DNA of 40,858 nt from Candidatus Binatota bacterium (GCA_012960245.1 DUBO01000056.1:1-40858), one strand, 5' to 3'; shown: positions 1 through 4,761, counted from the stretch's first letter. Made by a program: numbers and translations. The notes: generated from the sequence alone by a model not told the origin.

Positions 1-672
1 TTTACCCGTCGGTGGATCGAAGCTCACCCCCGGCAAGCCCGGTCGCCCGAAGCCCGGCGCTGCCAAGAGTTCGAGTCCTGGGCGGCAGGCGCCCGGTCGC
101 TGATCGAGGCGGGTCGGATCGACAGCAGCTTTCCTTTTCTGCTCGCGTCGGTGGGCACCGGTACCTCGGTGTTGCTGGTCAACAACGACAGCGTGCACCG
201 GGTGGGAGGCACGGCACTGGGAGGCGGCACCTTCATGGGACTGGTGAACGTGCTGGCCGGTGCCCGCGACTTTGCGGCCGCCGTTGTACTCGCGGCCGCC
301 GGCGATCGAAAGAACGTGGACCTCCTGGTCAAGGACGTTTACCGCGACAGCAAAGAGTTGCCGCTGCCTGGCGACTTGAACGCGGCGTCCTTCGGCAAGA
401 TAACCGCTGATGGCCCCGAGCCCGTAGCGGCCGACCTCGCCAACTCGGCCGCGGCGCTGGTGGCCGAGAACATAGCCCTGCTCTGTCACGGCATGGCCGC
501 TGCCGCGGGAGTGGACACGGTGGTGTACGGTGGCGCCACGCTGCGCGACAACCCGGCACTGGTGAGCGTGCTCACCGAGGTGTCGGCAGCCGTCGGCCTG
601 CGAGCGGTGGTGCCGGACAATGGCGAGTTCACCGGCGCTCTGGGCGCGCTCAAGCTCGCTGCGAGTCTGTAG
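1..672 (+). CDS. coaW: Type II pantothenate kinase, 3' part (partial)
   Basis: The reading frame is open from the first base of the window to a TAG stop at 670-672, so 223 residues of the C-terminal part are present and the start lies outside. It matches the type II (fumble/CoaW) pantothenate kinases, which phosphorylate pantothenate as the first step of coenzyme A synthesis in the cytoplasm. The visible signature is ASVGTGTS followed by a Gly-rich stretch (VGGTALGGGTF), the ASKHA-fold nucleotide and substrate loops of the family; a second Gly-rich segment, VVYGGATL, lies near the C-terminus. The N-terminal phosphate-binding loop is not visible. The gene runs convergent to the cytochrome gene with a single base between the two stop codons. 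Confidence 0.8.
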   Translation, partial: FTRRWIEAHPRQARSPEARRCQEFESWAAGARSLIEAGRIDSSFPFLLASVGTGTSVLLVNNDSVHRVGGTALGGGTFMGLVNVLAGARDFAAAVVLAAAGDRKNVDLLVKDVYRDSKELPLPGDLNAASFGKITADGPEPVAADLANSAAALVAENIALLCHGMAAAAGVDTVVYGGATLRDNPALVSVLTEVSAAVGLRAVVPDNGEFTGALGALKLAASL

Positions 673-673
673 C

Positions 674-1111
674 CTACCCGTCGTTGCCGTCGTTGCCGTC
701 GTTGCCGGCCAGCACGCGCTGACGCGCGGCCAGCGGGTCGAGGTAGGCCTGGGCCCGCAGGCGCCCGATTTCACTGGCCGTGTAAGGCGGGTCGGCCGTC
801 GTCTGACCAAAGCGCGACAGCACCCAGTTGAGTACGGCTGCGAGCCGTTGGTCGTCCAGTGGTGAGTGGGCTGCGCCGGGCACGCGCCCGAGGTATTCAC
901 GGCCGCCGGGCAGCGCGAAGATGCGGCCGGTGTCGGCAAGTGAGGGTACCGCGCGTGATCCCTGGCCCTGGAGCAGGTGGCAGCCGCCACAGCTGAGCAG
1001 GTAGTCGTTGCGAACCTGCGCGTTGTTGTCGGTGGCTGCCTGGCTCGGCGACGCAGCAGCGGCGGTGGCTATAAGGGCAGTGACGAGCAGCGCCGGTAAG
1101 CGGGACTTCAT
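674..1111 (-). CDS. Small periplasmic monoheme cytochrome c, last gene of the amine dehydrogenase operon
   Basis: 145 residues. A signal peptide (about residues 1-25, ending PSQA) is followed by one heme-binding site, C41-G-G-C44-H45, so this is an exported class I-like cytochrome c. The ATG at 1111 overlaps the light-chain stop codon in an ATGA, fixing the start and implying translational coupling. It occupies the place that the copper protein amicyanin (mauC) has in classical mau clusters; the aau cluster of Alcaligenes faecalis, as I recall it, also has a small monoheme cytochrome gene (orf-2) here. It is therefore the likely electron acceptor for the TTQ enzyme (inference). Odd points: there is no Met after the heme motif, and the only other His is H82 (PGAAHSPL). 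The C-terminus is a repeated GND tripeptide. Confidence 0.85.
   Translation of the reverse strand: MKSRLPALLVTALIATAAAASPSQAATDNNAQVRNDYLLSCGGCHLLQGQGSRAVPSLADTGRIFALPGGREYLGRVPGAAHSPLDDQRLAAVLNWVLSRFGQTTADPPYTASEIGRLRAQAYLDPLAARQRVLAGNDGNDGNDG
679..705. repeat. Three 9-bp tandem repeats at the 3' end of the cytochrome gene
   Basis: The unit CGTCGTTGC occurs three times without change at 679-687, 688-696 and 697-705. Read on the minus strand it encodes the GND-GND-GND tail of the cytochrome, immediately before its stop. Perfect identity of the copies suggests recent slippage. Confidence 0.85.
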
Positions 1112-1683
1112 TTCTCCGGCTGCCCTTCTACCGCCAGTCCGATGATCATGGCAGTGGAGCAGTTGTAGACCTGCGACTGCGCGCCCGCGCACCAGTTGAT
1201 GTCGTTGTTGCGGTAGGGGTGGTAGACCGGCCGTTCCCCCTCGTTGCGGTTGCAGAAGCAGCGGCCGCAGGGGTTCTTGCCGCAGCAGTCGTTGTACCAG
1301 ATGAGGTAGTCTTTCTTATCCAGCGGGTTGCGACAGGTTCCTATCCAGGTCACCGGCGACATTTCGGTGCCCGGCGGGCAGCTCGTGCCGCTGCCGCCAC
1401 AACAACCGCATAGAAATCCGTCGATGGCACAGTTGCGCCAGTAGTCGCAGTGGTTGGGGTCGCCCTCGGGGCCTTCAATGTCTTCGGGCGGGGCGGCAGC
1501 GCGTGAACCGGGGCTTTCGTCGGAGGCTTGTCCGCGGGCCACCGGCAACAGTGGCAACGCCGCGACCCCGGCCACGGTGCCCCCAGCTATCACGTGGCCC
1601 AGGCGGGCGAGAAAACTACGCCGCCCACTGCGCCGCGCGAGCGCGCGCGAGCTGTTTTCCATCCAACGGTCCAACCTGCTCAT
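1108..1683 (-). CDS. mauA: Quinoprotein amine dehydrogenase light chain (MauA/AauA), TTQ-bearing subunit
   Basis: 191 residues. This is the small, catalytic subunit of a periplasmic TTQ amine dehydrogenase, which deaminates primary amines to aldehydes. A twin-arginine leader (RRSFLARLG, about 21-29, then a hydrophobic stretch) fits Tat export of the family. The mature part is Cys-rich (14 Cys). The TTQ tryptophans are W113 (SPVTWIGTC) and W164 (DINWCAGA), 51 apart as in the family; D88 and D132 (NDCCGK) match the two conserved active-site aspartates. Two cysteines beyond the usual twelve, C95 (CGCCGG) and C139 (NPCGRC), and the short W164-C175-S176 spacing resemble aromatic amine dehydrogenase (AauA) more than methylamine dehydrogenase. 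It overlaps mauD and the cytochrome gene by ATGA junctions. The symbol is that of the family; aauA may be more exact. Confidence 0.93.
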   Translation of the reverse strand: MSRLDRWMENSSRALARRSGRRSFLARLGHVIAGGTVAGVAALPLLPVARGQASDESPGSRAAAPPEDIEGPEGDPNHCDYWRNCAIDGFLCGCCGGSGTSCPPGTEMSPVTWIGTCRNPLDKKDYLIWYNDCCGKNPCGRCFCNRNEGERPVYHPYRNNDINWCAGAQSQVYNCSTAMIIGLAVEGQPEK

Positions 1684-2351
1684 AGAGCTTGTTCTCCTGC
1701 GGGTGCATCCAGCTCGTGGCCGGAGGGCTCAAGTTCGGCCGACTCAAGTTCGAGATACTCCTGTACCGAGGCCACGCCCAGGCGTCGCGCCTCGAACAGG
1801 CTCTCGAGGTGCTCGCGGGTGTTTACCATGCCGCGGGCGCGCAGCAGTCCGTCGCCGTCCACGAGGGCCGCATAGGGCAGTTTTGAAACCTGCCAGGCCA
1901 GGCCGAGCTCGGTTGATACCACCAGCGGCAGCGACGAGACCCCGTTGGCGCTGGCGTAGCGGCGGTACTCGTCAGGGTCGCCGTCGCCGGCCAGTACCAC
2001 GCGTGCGCTCGCGTCTTCGTCTGCTGCTACCCGCAGCAGGGTGGGCAGCAGGGTGCGGCAGAGCGGGCAGGTAGGCGAGAGAAAGAACAGCAGCGTGTCG
2101 CGTCCGTCGGGGCTGGGCGCACCCAGTTCCAGGCTGCTCCCATCGAGCGTGGTGAGGGACAGTCGCGGCGCCGGCTGGCCCACGGTCGGTCCCTTGGCGG
2201 GTGCCAGCGCGCCTGCCGGTGCTACCCGTTCGTGCAGCAGGCCCACTTGCCGCGAGAGCGCGAACACGACCAGCGCCAGTGCCACCACGCAGACCCACAG
2301 CAGCACGTTGGTTATGACCAGGGCCTGCACGGCGTCAGGCCTCCTCTCCAC
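1680..2351 (-). CDS. mauD: MauD/AauD-like thioredoxin-fold protein for light-chain maturation
   Basis: 223 residues. An N-terminal membrane anchor (about 10-32) precedes a periplasmic thioredoxin-like domain with the redox motif C95-P-L-C98 (SPTCPLCRT) and a cis-Pro region (SKLPYAALV). MauD proteins are required for correct disulfide formation and stability of the amine dehydrogenase light chain, which here has 14 cysteines. The gene overlaps mauE by 17 bp upstream and the light-chain gene by an ATGA downstream, so it is inside one operon. The Glu-rich C-terminus has no assigned role. Confidence 0.9.
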   Translation of the reverse strand: MERRPDAVQALVITNVLLWVCVVALALVVFALSRQVGLLHERVAPAGALAPAKGPTVGQPAPRLSLTTLDGSSLELGAPSPDGRDTLLFFLSPTCPLCRTLLPTLLRVAADEDASARVVLAGDGDPDEYRRYASANGVSSLPLVVSTELGLAWQVSKLPYAALVDGDGLLRARGMVNTREHLESLFEARRLGVASVQEYLELESAELEPSGHELDAPAGEQAL

Positions 2352-2874
2352 TGGGCGATGACAAGGACATCAGCCGGTTGGATGCCGCCCACAGCAGGCT
2401 GGCGCAGGCCACCGTGCCCAGGAATGACAGGCCGTCGAGCCAGCCAAGTGCGCGAGCCGACGTGGGCGCGCAGGCCATCAGTCCGGCCGCCACCAGCGCC
2501 AGGTTACGGCCTAGCAGGCCGGGGTGCAGGCGTTGCGGTGGTCCGCCGCAGCCGCAGTCAAGGTCGCGCCGGCCACGCAGCAGGTTGATGGCGATGGCGC
2601 AGGAGTAGACAGTCAGCAGCGCGGCCGCCGCAAGCGCGGGCAGCAGCCCGGCCGCGGGCAACAGGAAGGCCACGGCCAGCAGCAGTTCTCCCACGCCGGT
2701 GGCCCAGGCGATGGGCGTGACCAGGCCGTCGGGCACGAGACGGTAATCCGAGAGCACCGAGCGAAAGGCCATCGGGTCGCTCAGCTTGTGCAGCGCTGCG
2801 CCCGCGAACAACAGCGCCATGCAGGCCCTCAGCGCCAGCGCCAGCACGGGATCGATCTCGGCCATGGTGATCAC
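2335..2874 (-). CDS. mauE: MauE/AauE-like integral membrane protein
   Basis: 179 residues with about four or five hydrophobic segments (roughly 11-30, 52-75, 78-98, 120-137, 148-165). A Cys pair, C107-G-C109-G, lies in the hydrophilic loop before the fourth segment, where MauE/DoxX-like proteins of this family carry their conserved cysteines. MauE is needed, with MauD, for light-chain folding in the periplasm, probably by relaying reducing power or disulfides across the membrane. The start is either GTG at 2874, overlapping the heavy-chain stop as GTGA, or ATG at 2865 three codons in; the overlap pattern of the operon favours the GTG, but the choice is not certain. Confidence 0.88.
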   Translation of the reverse strand: MITMAEIDPVLALALRACMALLFAGAALHKLSDPMAFRSVLSDYRLVPDGLVTPIAWATGVGELLLAVAFLLPAAGLLPALAAAALLTVYSCAIAINLLRGRRDLDCGCGGPPQRLHPGLLGRNLALVAAGLMACAPTSARALGWLDGLSFLGTVACASLLWAASNRLMSLSSPSGEEA

Positions 2875-4157
2875 GGAATGCGGATCTCCCCGCCGGTCAT
2901 GCCCGCTTCTTCTATGGTGTGCCGGTGGCGGCCGTCACGCGCGTCGAGTACGCCGATGACGCCGATTTCACCGTGGCGCAGGAACAGCAGCGGCTCGTCG
3001 TCCTGGCTCACCACTATCCTGTGGGCTCCCATTGACGGCGTAAAAAAACTCAGCGCGCGGTAGGCCAGGCTACCCGGCTCGAGACCCAGCACCGGGCGCA
3101 GGAAGGCCGGCAGCAGTGCCGGGATCTCGAAGGTGTCCGCGCGTGCTTGTTTTTCAAGGTCATAGACCCAGATCTCGCTGCCGGCGTCCTTGTGAGAGCC
3201 GGGCCCACCCTGGTGAACGAGCGAGTACAGGCGGCGGCTGTTGCGGTGAAGCGCGAGGTGCTGGGAGCCGCCCACCAACCAGGAATCGGTACGCTCTCGG
3301 TCGGTCATGAGCGACCAGCGCGCCACCAGCGAGGGCTTGCCGCCGGCAAACTCGACCTCGTGAAGGTAGCCGTCGAACGAAGCGAACAGCCAGCGACTAC
3401 CGTCGCGCGCGCCCTTTTCGCTGAGCGGGTCTGCGACCACGTCGAAGAAGGGCTCACTGCGCCTGGTCTCGGCGGCGCTGCCGTCGTCGGCCAGGGTGAC
3501 GGCCAAGGCGGCGCCGTCACCGCAGAGCATGCCGAAGCTGCGCCGCCCGGTGGGGTACACCAGCGAGCAACCGGCCACGGGTATCTCGGCCGCGAAGCGT
3601 CGTTGTTCGAGGTCAACGACGGTCACTGAACCTGACTGCACGAGGTTGAGCACCACCAGGAAACGCTCGTCGTCGAGCAGGGCCGACAGCGCTATGCCGG
3701 TGCCGGTCTCGGTAGCGTGCGTGGGCAGTTCGATCTCGCCCGTGACCGCGAGCGTGTGGAGATCGTAGATGGTCACGTAGTCGGTACGCTCGCCGCGGTG
3801 GCCGCGGTCGTATACCGGTTCGACCACGTAGACCTCGCGCCTCGAGTAGGACGTGTGCGGCGCCACCCCGCCCAGCGAGGCGGTGATGTCTACCATGCCC
3901 AGCGCCTGCCCGCTGTCGCCGTCAAACAGTATGCTGTGGCGAAACAGCCGGTCGCCCACCCACAGAGCGTGCGGGCCGAGCTCCGGGCGCACGCTTTCGA
4001 CCACGCCGTGCGGGTCCTGGGCAACGATGGGCGTCGCGTCCGAACCGTCTTTGTTGGCCTCGGGCGCAGACGGCCAGGCGGTGTCGGCGGCTGGGCCGAG
4101 GGAGAAGAAAGTTGCGGCAAACAGTGCTGGCAGTAGTGCTTTCACGGGCGAAAGCAC
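2871..4157 (-). CDS. mauB: Quinoprotein amine dehydrogenase heavy chain (MauB/AauB)
   Basis: 428 residues, the usual size for the large subunit. A signal peptide covers about residues 1-24, and the rest is the seven-bladed beta-propeller that holds the TTQ light chains in the heterotetramer. The segment EPVYDRGHRGERTDYV (about 113-128) is typical of amine dehydrogenase heavy chains; later blades contain GDG and WVYDLE-type repeats. It starts with GTG at 4157; an in-frame GTG at 4145 would give a shorter leader (MKALLPALF) and is an equally good start, and neither has a clear Shine-Dalgarno. It is the first gene of the B-E-D-A-cytochrome operon and lies 76 bp after the FKBP gene. Confidence 0.92.
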   Translation of the reverse strand: MLSPVKALLPALFAATFFSLGPAADTAWPSAPEANKDGSDATPIVAQDPHGVVESVRPELGPHALWVGDRLFRHSILFDGDSGQALGMVDITASLGGVAPHTSYSRREVYVVEPVYDRGHRGERTDYVTIYDLHTLAVTGEIELPTHATETGTGIALSALLDDERFLVVLNLVQSGSVTVVDLEQRRFAAEIPVAGCSLVYPTGRRSFGMLCGDGAALAVTLADDGSAAETRRSEPFFDVVADPLSEKGARDGSRWLFASFDGYLHEVEFAGGKPSLVARWSLMTDRERTDSWLVGGSQHLALHRNSRRLYSLVHQGGPGSHKDAGSEIWVYDLEKQARADTFEIPALLPAFLRPVLGLEPGSLAYRALSFFTPSMGAHRIVVSQDDEPLLFLRHGEIGVIGVLDARDGRHRHTIEEAGMTGGEIRIP

Positions 4158-4186: not shown

Positions 4187-4234
4187 GGCGGCGCCCGCCC
4201 GGTAATCGCGCCGGAGGTCAGCGCCGCCGGGCGC
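4187..4234. repeat. GC-rich inverted repeats between the FKBP and heavy-chain genes
   Basis: Two overlapping inverted repeats can be drawn: ggcggcgc (4187-4194) with gcgccgcc (4221-4228), and gcgcccg (4191-4197) with cgggcgc (4228-4234). They can form a stable hairpin in the minus-strand transcript directly after the FKBP stop. There is no U-tract, so this may be a weak attenuator or an RNA-processing structure rather than a classical terminator. Confidence 0.4.
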
Positions 4235-4761
4235 TATTGGACGGCGATGATCTTGACGTCGAAGGTCAGGTTCTGGCCCGCCAGCGGGTGGTTGAAATCA
4301 ATCACGGCCGTTTCGTCTTTGATCTCGACTACGCGCACCGGACGACGGCTGCCGTCGGGCGCGCCGACCACCAGCGTGGTGCCGGCTTCGCGGGCTTCTT
4401 CGGGTATCAGCGACAGCTCGACCTGGCGGAAGGCCTCTTCGTCGATTTCACCGTAGCCGTCTGAGGATGAGAGTTTTACCTGTTTGCTCTGGTCTACCGC
4501 GAGGCCAAGCAGGGCTGCTTCGAGGGCCGGCAGGATCTCGTTGCTACCCTGGGTGTAGACCATCGGGGCCCGGCCCTCGCTGCTGTCGGCCGTCGTGCCG
4601 TCGTCGAGCTTGAGCGTGTACTCTATAGAGACCTTGCTACCTTCCTTTACTACCTTGGACTCCTTGTCGCTGTCTTGCGCGTAAGAGGCCGAGGCCACCA
4701 GTACTGCCAGAAGGCTGGCGGTCGCGATCCGTGCAACGGCTGTAATTGTTCCAGATCTCAT
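4234..4761 (-). CDS. Exported FKBP-type (SlyD-like) peptidyl-prolyl cis-trans isomerase
   Basis: 175 residues. A signal peptide (about 1-28, cleavage after ASYA) places it in the periplasm. The FKBP core starts with VSIEYTLKLDDGTTADSS, and the order of core strand, flap-type insert (DGYGEIDEEAFRQVEL and the following 30 residues) and returning strand (DFNHPLAGQNLTFDVKII) is that of SlyD-type FKBPs; NHPLAG is the typical SlyD sequence. The His-rich metal-binding tail of E. coli SlyD is absent. The start at 4761 has a cagg-ag Shine-Dalgarno seven bases upstream. It lies 76 bp upstream of the heavy-chain gene on the same strand, so a role in folding the exported dehydrogenase is possible but only inferred. 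Confidence 0.88.
   Translation of the reverse strand: MRSGTITAVARIATASLLAVLVASASYAQDSDKESKVVKEGSKVSIEYTLKLDDGTTADSSEGRAPMVYTQGSNEILPALEAALLGLAVDQSKQVKLSSSDGYGEIDEEAFRQVELSLIPEEAREAGTTLVVGAPDGSRRPVRVVEIKDETAVIDFNHPLAGQNLTFDVKIIAVQ

Follow-up and report, generated by a model that had tools for sequence, protein, structure and literature searches.

A Met-less cytochrome c552 homologue in aau-type amine dehydrogenase operons is a candidate MauG-independent TTQ maturation factor

The window analysed here is a 40,858-nt stretch of DNA from a Candidatus Binatota bacterium (GCA_012960245.1 DUBO01000056.1:1-40858), and between positions 674 and 4157 it carries an operon of five minus-strand genes whose ends overlap. 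In order, these encode the exported beta-propeller heavy (alpha) chain of an amine dehydrogenase (2871..4157, 428 aa; PF06433, 3.9e-34), a MauE-type membrane protein (2335..2874, 179 aa; PF07291, 2.9e-26), a thioredoxin-like MauD with a CPLC motif at residue 95 (1680..2351; TIGR02661, 197.7 bits against a cut-off of 188.6), the TTQ light (beta) chain (1108..1683; PF02975, 5.9e-50) and a 145-aa monohaem cytochrome c (674..1111), the gene for which overlaps that of the light chain. Pfam and NCBIfam calls together with the coordinates confirm the overlapping five-gene order given in the original prediction, which was also right that no amicyanin, mauF, mauG, mauL, mauM or mauN lies near the operon. 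The most plausible start codon of the cytochrome gene is the ATG at 1109-1111, given the signal peptide encoded after it; a longer open reading frame reaching 1192 was rejected as a mechanical extension. On one side the operon is flanked by part of a type II pantothenate kinase gene (151-672, plus strand), and on the other, 77 bp upstream and on the same strand as the operon, by a gene for an FKBP-type peptidyl-prolyl isomerase (4234-4761, minus strand). The isomerase is kept in a same-genus genome (86%), and we detected none beside the operon in the other fetched loci. Across the class no further gene beyond the five is conserved at this position, which leaves the operon without a linked maturase of the radical-SAM or flavoprotein kind. 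The host assembly is 2.82 Mb and 96% complete, and a profile search of the whole genome found no cupredoxin (PF00127). Depositor labels within its class include both ‘Candidatus Binatia’ and ‘Deltaproteobacteria’, and a same-order MAG is named Candidatus Binatia; the class is thus probably Binatia, a likelier name than the earlier ‘deltaproteobacteria-like’.

Sequence comparisons support the reading of the encoded enzyme as an aau-type TTQ amine dehydrogenase, that is, one on the side of the aromatic amine dehydrogenase (AADH) of Alcaligenes faecalis. The heavy chain has its best PDB match in that enzyme (2hxc, 1.2e-38, vs 4e-31 for methylamine dehydrogenase, MADH), and the light chain scores 1.9e-46 against AADH and 1.2e-36 against mature MADH chains. 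A MADH precursor comes close to the AADH value (1.6e-46), but in an alignment that takes in the leader; restricted to the mature domain, the best PDB match is A. faecalis AADH. Both subunits fall below the NCBIfam MADH equivalogs (heavy chain 123.3 bits against the 454.45 cut-off of TIGR02658; light chain 178.9 against 196.85). The light chain has 14 cysteines and the tryptophans W113 (codon 1345-1347) and W164 (codon 1192-1194), which are predicted to form TTQ and whose positions are kept in 118/118 and 117/118 aligned light chains, and its Asp132, the equivalent of the catalytic Asp76, is Asp in all 118. In trees of heavy and light chains, every MauF/MauG-linked enzyme lies on one side of a 100/100 branch and both the window and A. 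faecalis AADH lie on the other, so that gene order, tree placement and PDB matches agree with the aau-type architecture first proposed for the locus and place it outside the MauFG/MADH clade. The closest kin of the window come from Myxococcota-labelled MAGs and from the class of the window itself; A. faecalis AADH instead groups with plasmid-borne Pseudomonadota clusters, and the window is not nested with it.

Chistoserdov reportedly described in 2001 the order of the A. faecalis aauBEDA-orf2 cluster, which is said to lack mauFGLMN. The window shares its gene order and its side of the tree with that cluster (PDB 2agl and others); in both, the light-chain gene is followed by one for a small monohaem cytochrome, orf2 being compared here by gene position and monohaem type. 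The Paracoccus denitrificans mau operon (L128) has the B-E-D-A core, the TTQ tryptophans and MauD/MauE in common with the window but belongs to the separate clade, and it has mauF, amicyanin, mauJ, mauG and mauM/N and lacks the cytochrome described below. The suggestion that the substrate is an aralkyl amine is not supported as it stands. In the column of the hydrophobic alpha-Phe97 gate the window has Ala and an inserted stretch, and only 12 of about 110 aligned chains have Phe, with the alignment of this loop being uncertain; the Phe that gates MADH and AADH thus appears not to be conserved in this clade, and with the loop insertion the substrate cannot be read off the sequence. The window differs from A. 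faecalis AADH in this region and is not nested with it, and we know of no characterised enzyme on that side of the family other than A. faecalis AADH itself.

The fifth gene product carries a single CxxCH, the haem-attachment motif CGGCH at residues 41-45 (977..991, minus strand), unlike the two-haem PF03150 proteins of the MauG and dihaem peroxidase kind; no Pfam or NCBIfam family matched the protein above threshold, the best in Pfam being a weak match to Cytochrom_C. A profile of 42 relatives, however, matches Thermus thermophilus c552 (1c52/2fwl) at 1.5e-18 in two blocks split by a gap, and the AlphaFold2 model (pLDDT 92) has c552 as its top structural match (1dt1; VIA-align Z 10.9, 102 residues, 2.5 A). 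The two proteins share their fold and are homologous over the whole length, including the C-terminal extension (1c52/1dt1), but c552 has Met69 and its loop, both of which the operon cytochromes have lost. Specifically, in an alignment of c552, the Met-bearing cytochromes from the same operons and 115 distinct Met-less sequences, all 115 have the same 18-residue deletion, which removes the Met-ligand loop (c552 residues 50-67); the segment is exactly 23 residues long in every one of them, 41 in c552 and 40-42 in the full-length Met-bearing proteins. In the window, a Pro-Gly pair (residues 78-79; 875..880, minus strand) aligns to the site of the lost loop. The Met69 column holds Gly in 110 and Asn in 5 of the Met-less sequences, compared with Met in 15 of the 17 Met-bearing rows (15/16 when only full-length rows are counted, one exception being a truncated fragment), and the mature cytochrome of the window has no Met at all.

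Across the first alignment, of 87 sequences, the only invariant positions are CxxCH, Pro56, Arg71, Pro78, Glu114 and Arg119; Met, Lys and Cys are not conserved there, nor is any second His. In the window, His82 lies three residues past the Pro-Gly pair at the deletion site, where it could occupy the sixth coordination position; this would count against five-coordination. Position 72 of c552 is Q/T/N/H in most members, with His in 6/115 and Gln, Thr and Asn commoner, and we ruled out a bis-His haem as a general rule on that count of six. In a tree built without the deleted columns the Met-less set forms a single group (99/88) once the contig-end fragment L089 is left out; with L089 included, the tree gave two changes. 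By these comparisons the cytochrome is a c552 homologue without the axial Met ligand, an addition to the earlier description of the protein as a monohaem cytochrome, which was correct as far as it went. The haem iron of c552 is ligated by His15 and Met69, and removal of Met69 gives a five-coordinate haem; the same study cites engineered c552 artificial peroxidases (PMC10635480).

The Met-less cytochrome is closely tied to the enzyme. Among 98 class relatives searched, 40 have light chains, and all 40 have the cytochrome at 110 bits or more; the one relative with the cytochrome and no light chain (G057) has the gene at a contig edge. In the genomes G101, G104 and G105, a genome-wide search added six loci at which the cytochrome accompanies a light chain, next to it in five cases and at a distance of about 4 kb in the sixth, and in G101 it does so even with MauD and MauE located mostly elsewhere. 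Sorted by content, the distinct loci comprise 125 with the cytochrome and without MauG/MauF, 9 with MauG and MauF and without the cytochrome (a small sample from few groups), and none with both. The loci first fetched gave 117 (108 distinct) of the first kind and 4 of the second, and newly drawn loci from two Pseudomonadota groups added 18 (17 distinct) and 5, plus one locus with neither. Of the seven loci with neither, two are contig ends and five are copies in genomes that carry the cytochrome elsewhere. The exclusion is kept even within the genomes G1117 (L231, L237) and G786 (L221, L224), each of which has one locus of each kind. We rejected the exclusivity as statistically independent evidence, as the pattern maps to one branch of the tree, and the two traits may simply be co-inherited. 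What the sequences contain is one deep evolutionary contrast plus 40/40 retention, which is correlation and not proof.

Some loci depart from the simple arrangement. The light chain stands without a nearby cytochrome at five loci, which are extra copies in G078 and G710 together with L106; a maturation factor could serve these only in trans. G078 (L065-L068) and G101 (L207-L210, L106) each carry at least four heavy/light pairs, and in G078 just one of the four loci has MauE/MauD and cytochromes. The aau clusters of Pseudomonas aeruginosa RW109 and Cupriavidus pinatubonensis plasmids (L129, L130) resemble the window in having BEDA, then the Met-less cytochrome, and no mauFG, but differ in a second cytochrome c between the light chain and the Met-less one. 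In many Pseudomonadota loci the added cytochrome is a dihaem protein or a c552 paralogue that keeps its Met, and the Met-less protein is retained as well. In marine Halieaceae (L101-L121) the aau operon is accompanied by a downstream dihaem cytochrome, an AraC-like regulator and a TonB receptor, which hints at uptake of a specific amine.

Because the Met-less cytochrome is present where mau operons have MauG, we propose that it is a monohaem, MauG-independent TTQ maturation factor, a reading that we favour tentatively and at slightly less than even confidence. The heavy and light chains would be exported to form a periplasmic TTQ amine dehydrogenase, with MauE and MauD, by homology, guiding export and disulfide folding of the light chain, and the dedicated c552-like cytochrome would complete TTQ in place of the dihaem MauG. 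Loss of the Met-ligand loop would leave the sixth coordination site open or weakly filled, perhaps with a five-coordinate haem, and a haem motif that is kept while the loop is lost is suited to binding peroxide or O2 over fast electron transfer. With peroxide, or with O2 and electrons, the cytochrome could then oxidise the precursor light chain at W113/W164 in the manner of a peroxidase, its Trp96, which is replaced in just a few members, perhaps providing the oxidation path. The mature enzyme would oxidise a primary amine and pass electrons to a separate acceptor that differs among lineages. The likeness to MauG lies in the proposed function and in the complementary set of loci only; MauG is an unrelated protein of 387 aa with two haems, compared with about 120 aa and one haem here, and since it uses both haems and long-range hole hopping, a single haem may not suffice. 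A broader form of the proposal, about which we are a shade more hesitant, is that a single 18-residue deletion of the Met loop turned a c-type carrier into a TTQ-completing monohaem oxidase, and that most TTQ amine dehydrogenases in nature depend on this route, as 125 of 134 classifiable loci in our sample would, leaving MauG to a minority.

The main competing explanation is that the dehydrogenase passes its electrons to the Met-less cytochrome, a dedicated acceptor in the place of amicyanin or azurin with an unusual axial ligand, either a His, Gln or Asn after the deletion or one donated by a partner. Descent from the electron carrier c552 is what would be expected of such an acceptor, as are the prevalence of Q/T/N/H at position 72, the overlap with the light-chain gene, the lack of a cupredoxin in the host genome and the absence of any other cytochrome from this operon and from most of its counterparts in the class. 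Nevertheless, no ligand residue is conserved, and a deletion of the Met loop in every member is expected to impair fast electron transfer. Moreover, where Pseudomonadota loci have gained a second, Met-bearing or dihaem cytochrome, the Met-less one is never lost, which favours separate roles for the two; the acceptor slot varies among these loci and the Met-less slot is constant, which counts for a role in maturation. We thus consider the acceptor explanation unlikely, though it is the one to be taken most seriously.

A less probable explanation again, and one that we doubt, is that completion of TTQ is autocatalytic or falls to a MauG-superfamily dihaem protein whose gene lies elsewhere, and that the cytochrome has some other task, say, sensing or peroxide protection. 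MauG finishes TTQ from a precursor with a mono-hydroxylated Trp, and the first hydroxylation is thought to be autocatalytic in MADH (PMC7876137). A MauG-superfamily protein occurs in 76 of the 98 class relatives, but most of these matches are weak and resemble generic peroxidases, and near-orthologues of MauG (>50% identity) occur in just 3/98 class genomes, distant from the operon. Near-orthologues of 51-54% (L143 in G036, L144 in G029, L145 in G072 and L184 in G105) lie outside mau operons in genomes that have aau operons. The host genome has a single superfamily match over the cut-off, on another contig: L142 (C51:66000-72500), a secreted peroxidase-like dihaem protein that is very long (at least 1457 aa) and has CASCH and CVGCH motifs followed by many Cys-rich CDDGDxCT repeats, and the same-genus genome G002 has a match in a frame of similar length. 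A search for a dihaem MauG homologue, as the original prediction advised, therefore yields one PF03150-like protein that counts against our maturation proposal but is too divergent and unlinked to be called MauG. In G104, which has the full operon, there is no PF03150 match even at E 0.1 and no MauG match, and a role unrelated to the enzyme would not yield the 40/40 association.

Least probable is a methylamine dehydrogenase serving methylotrophy, as the Binatota literature assumes from family-level mauA/mauB annotation: mauA/B were reported in Binatota orders with amicyanin named the most probable acceptor (Murphy et al. 2021, PMC8262859), yet here both subunits are below the MADH equivalog cut-offs and outside the MauFG clade (100/100), no mauF or mauG is linked, the host genome has no amicyanin and no PF00127, and the gating Phe appears unconserved. 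All class members placed in the trees fall on the aau side without a linked amicyanin, which suggests that ‘mauAB’ matches from Binatia and comparable uncultured groups denote aau enzymes of this kind. The case for methylotrophy read from ‘mauAB’ in Binatia (PMC8262859) is thus weaker than stated; the inference deserves re-examination and calls for caution.

What is new here is the loss of the Met-ligand loop in the cytochrome, together with its near-invariant association with the enzyme and its mutual exclusion with MauG/MauF. To our knowledge, how TTQ forms in aromatic amine dehydrogenases that lack mauFG has been an open question since the A. faecalis cluster was sequenced. The original prediction looked to factors encoded elsewhere or to an unknown route; it was right to look beyond mauFG, but the best candidate lies inside the operon, as its fifth gene. 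The Met-less cytochrome would thereby be the prime suspect for TTQ maturation in aromatic amine dehydrogenases, as one small, expressible protein with a clear structural signature, and G1117 and G786, each with a mau operon that has MauG and an aau operon that has the Met-less cytochrome, would be natural test strains.
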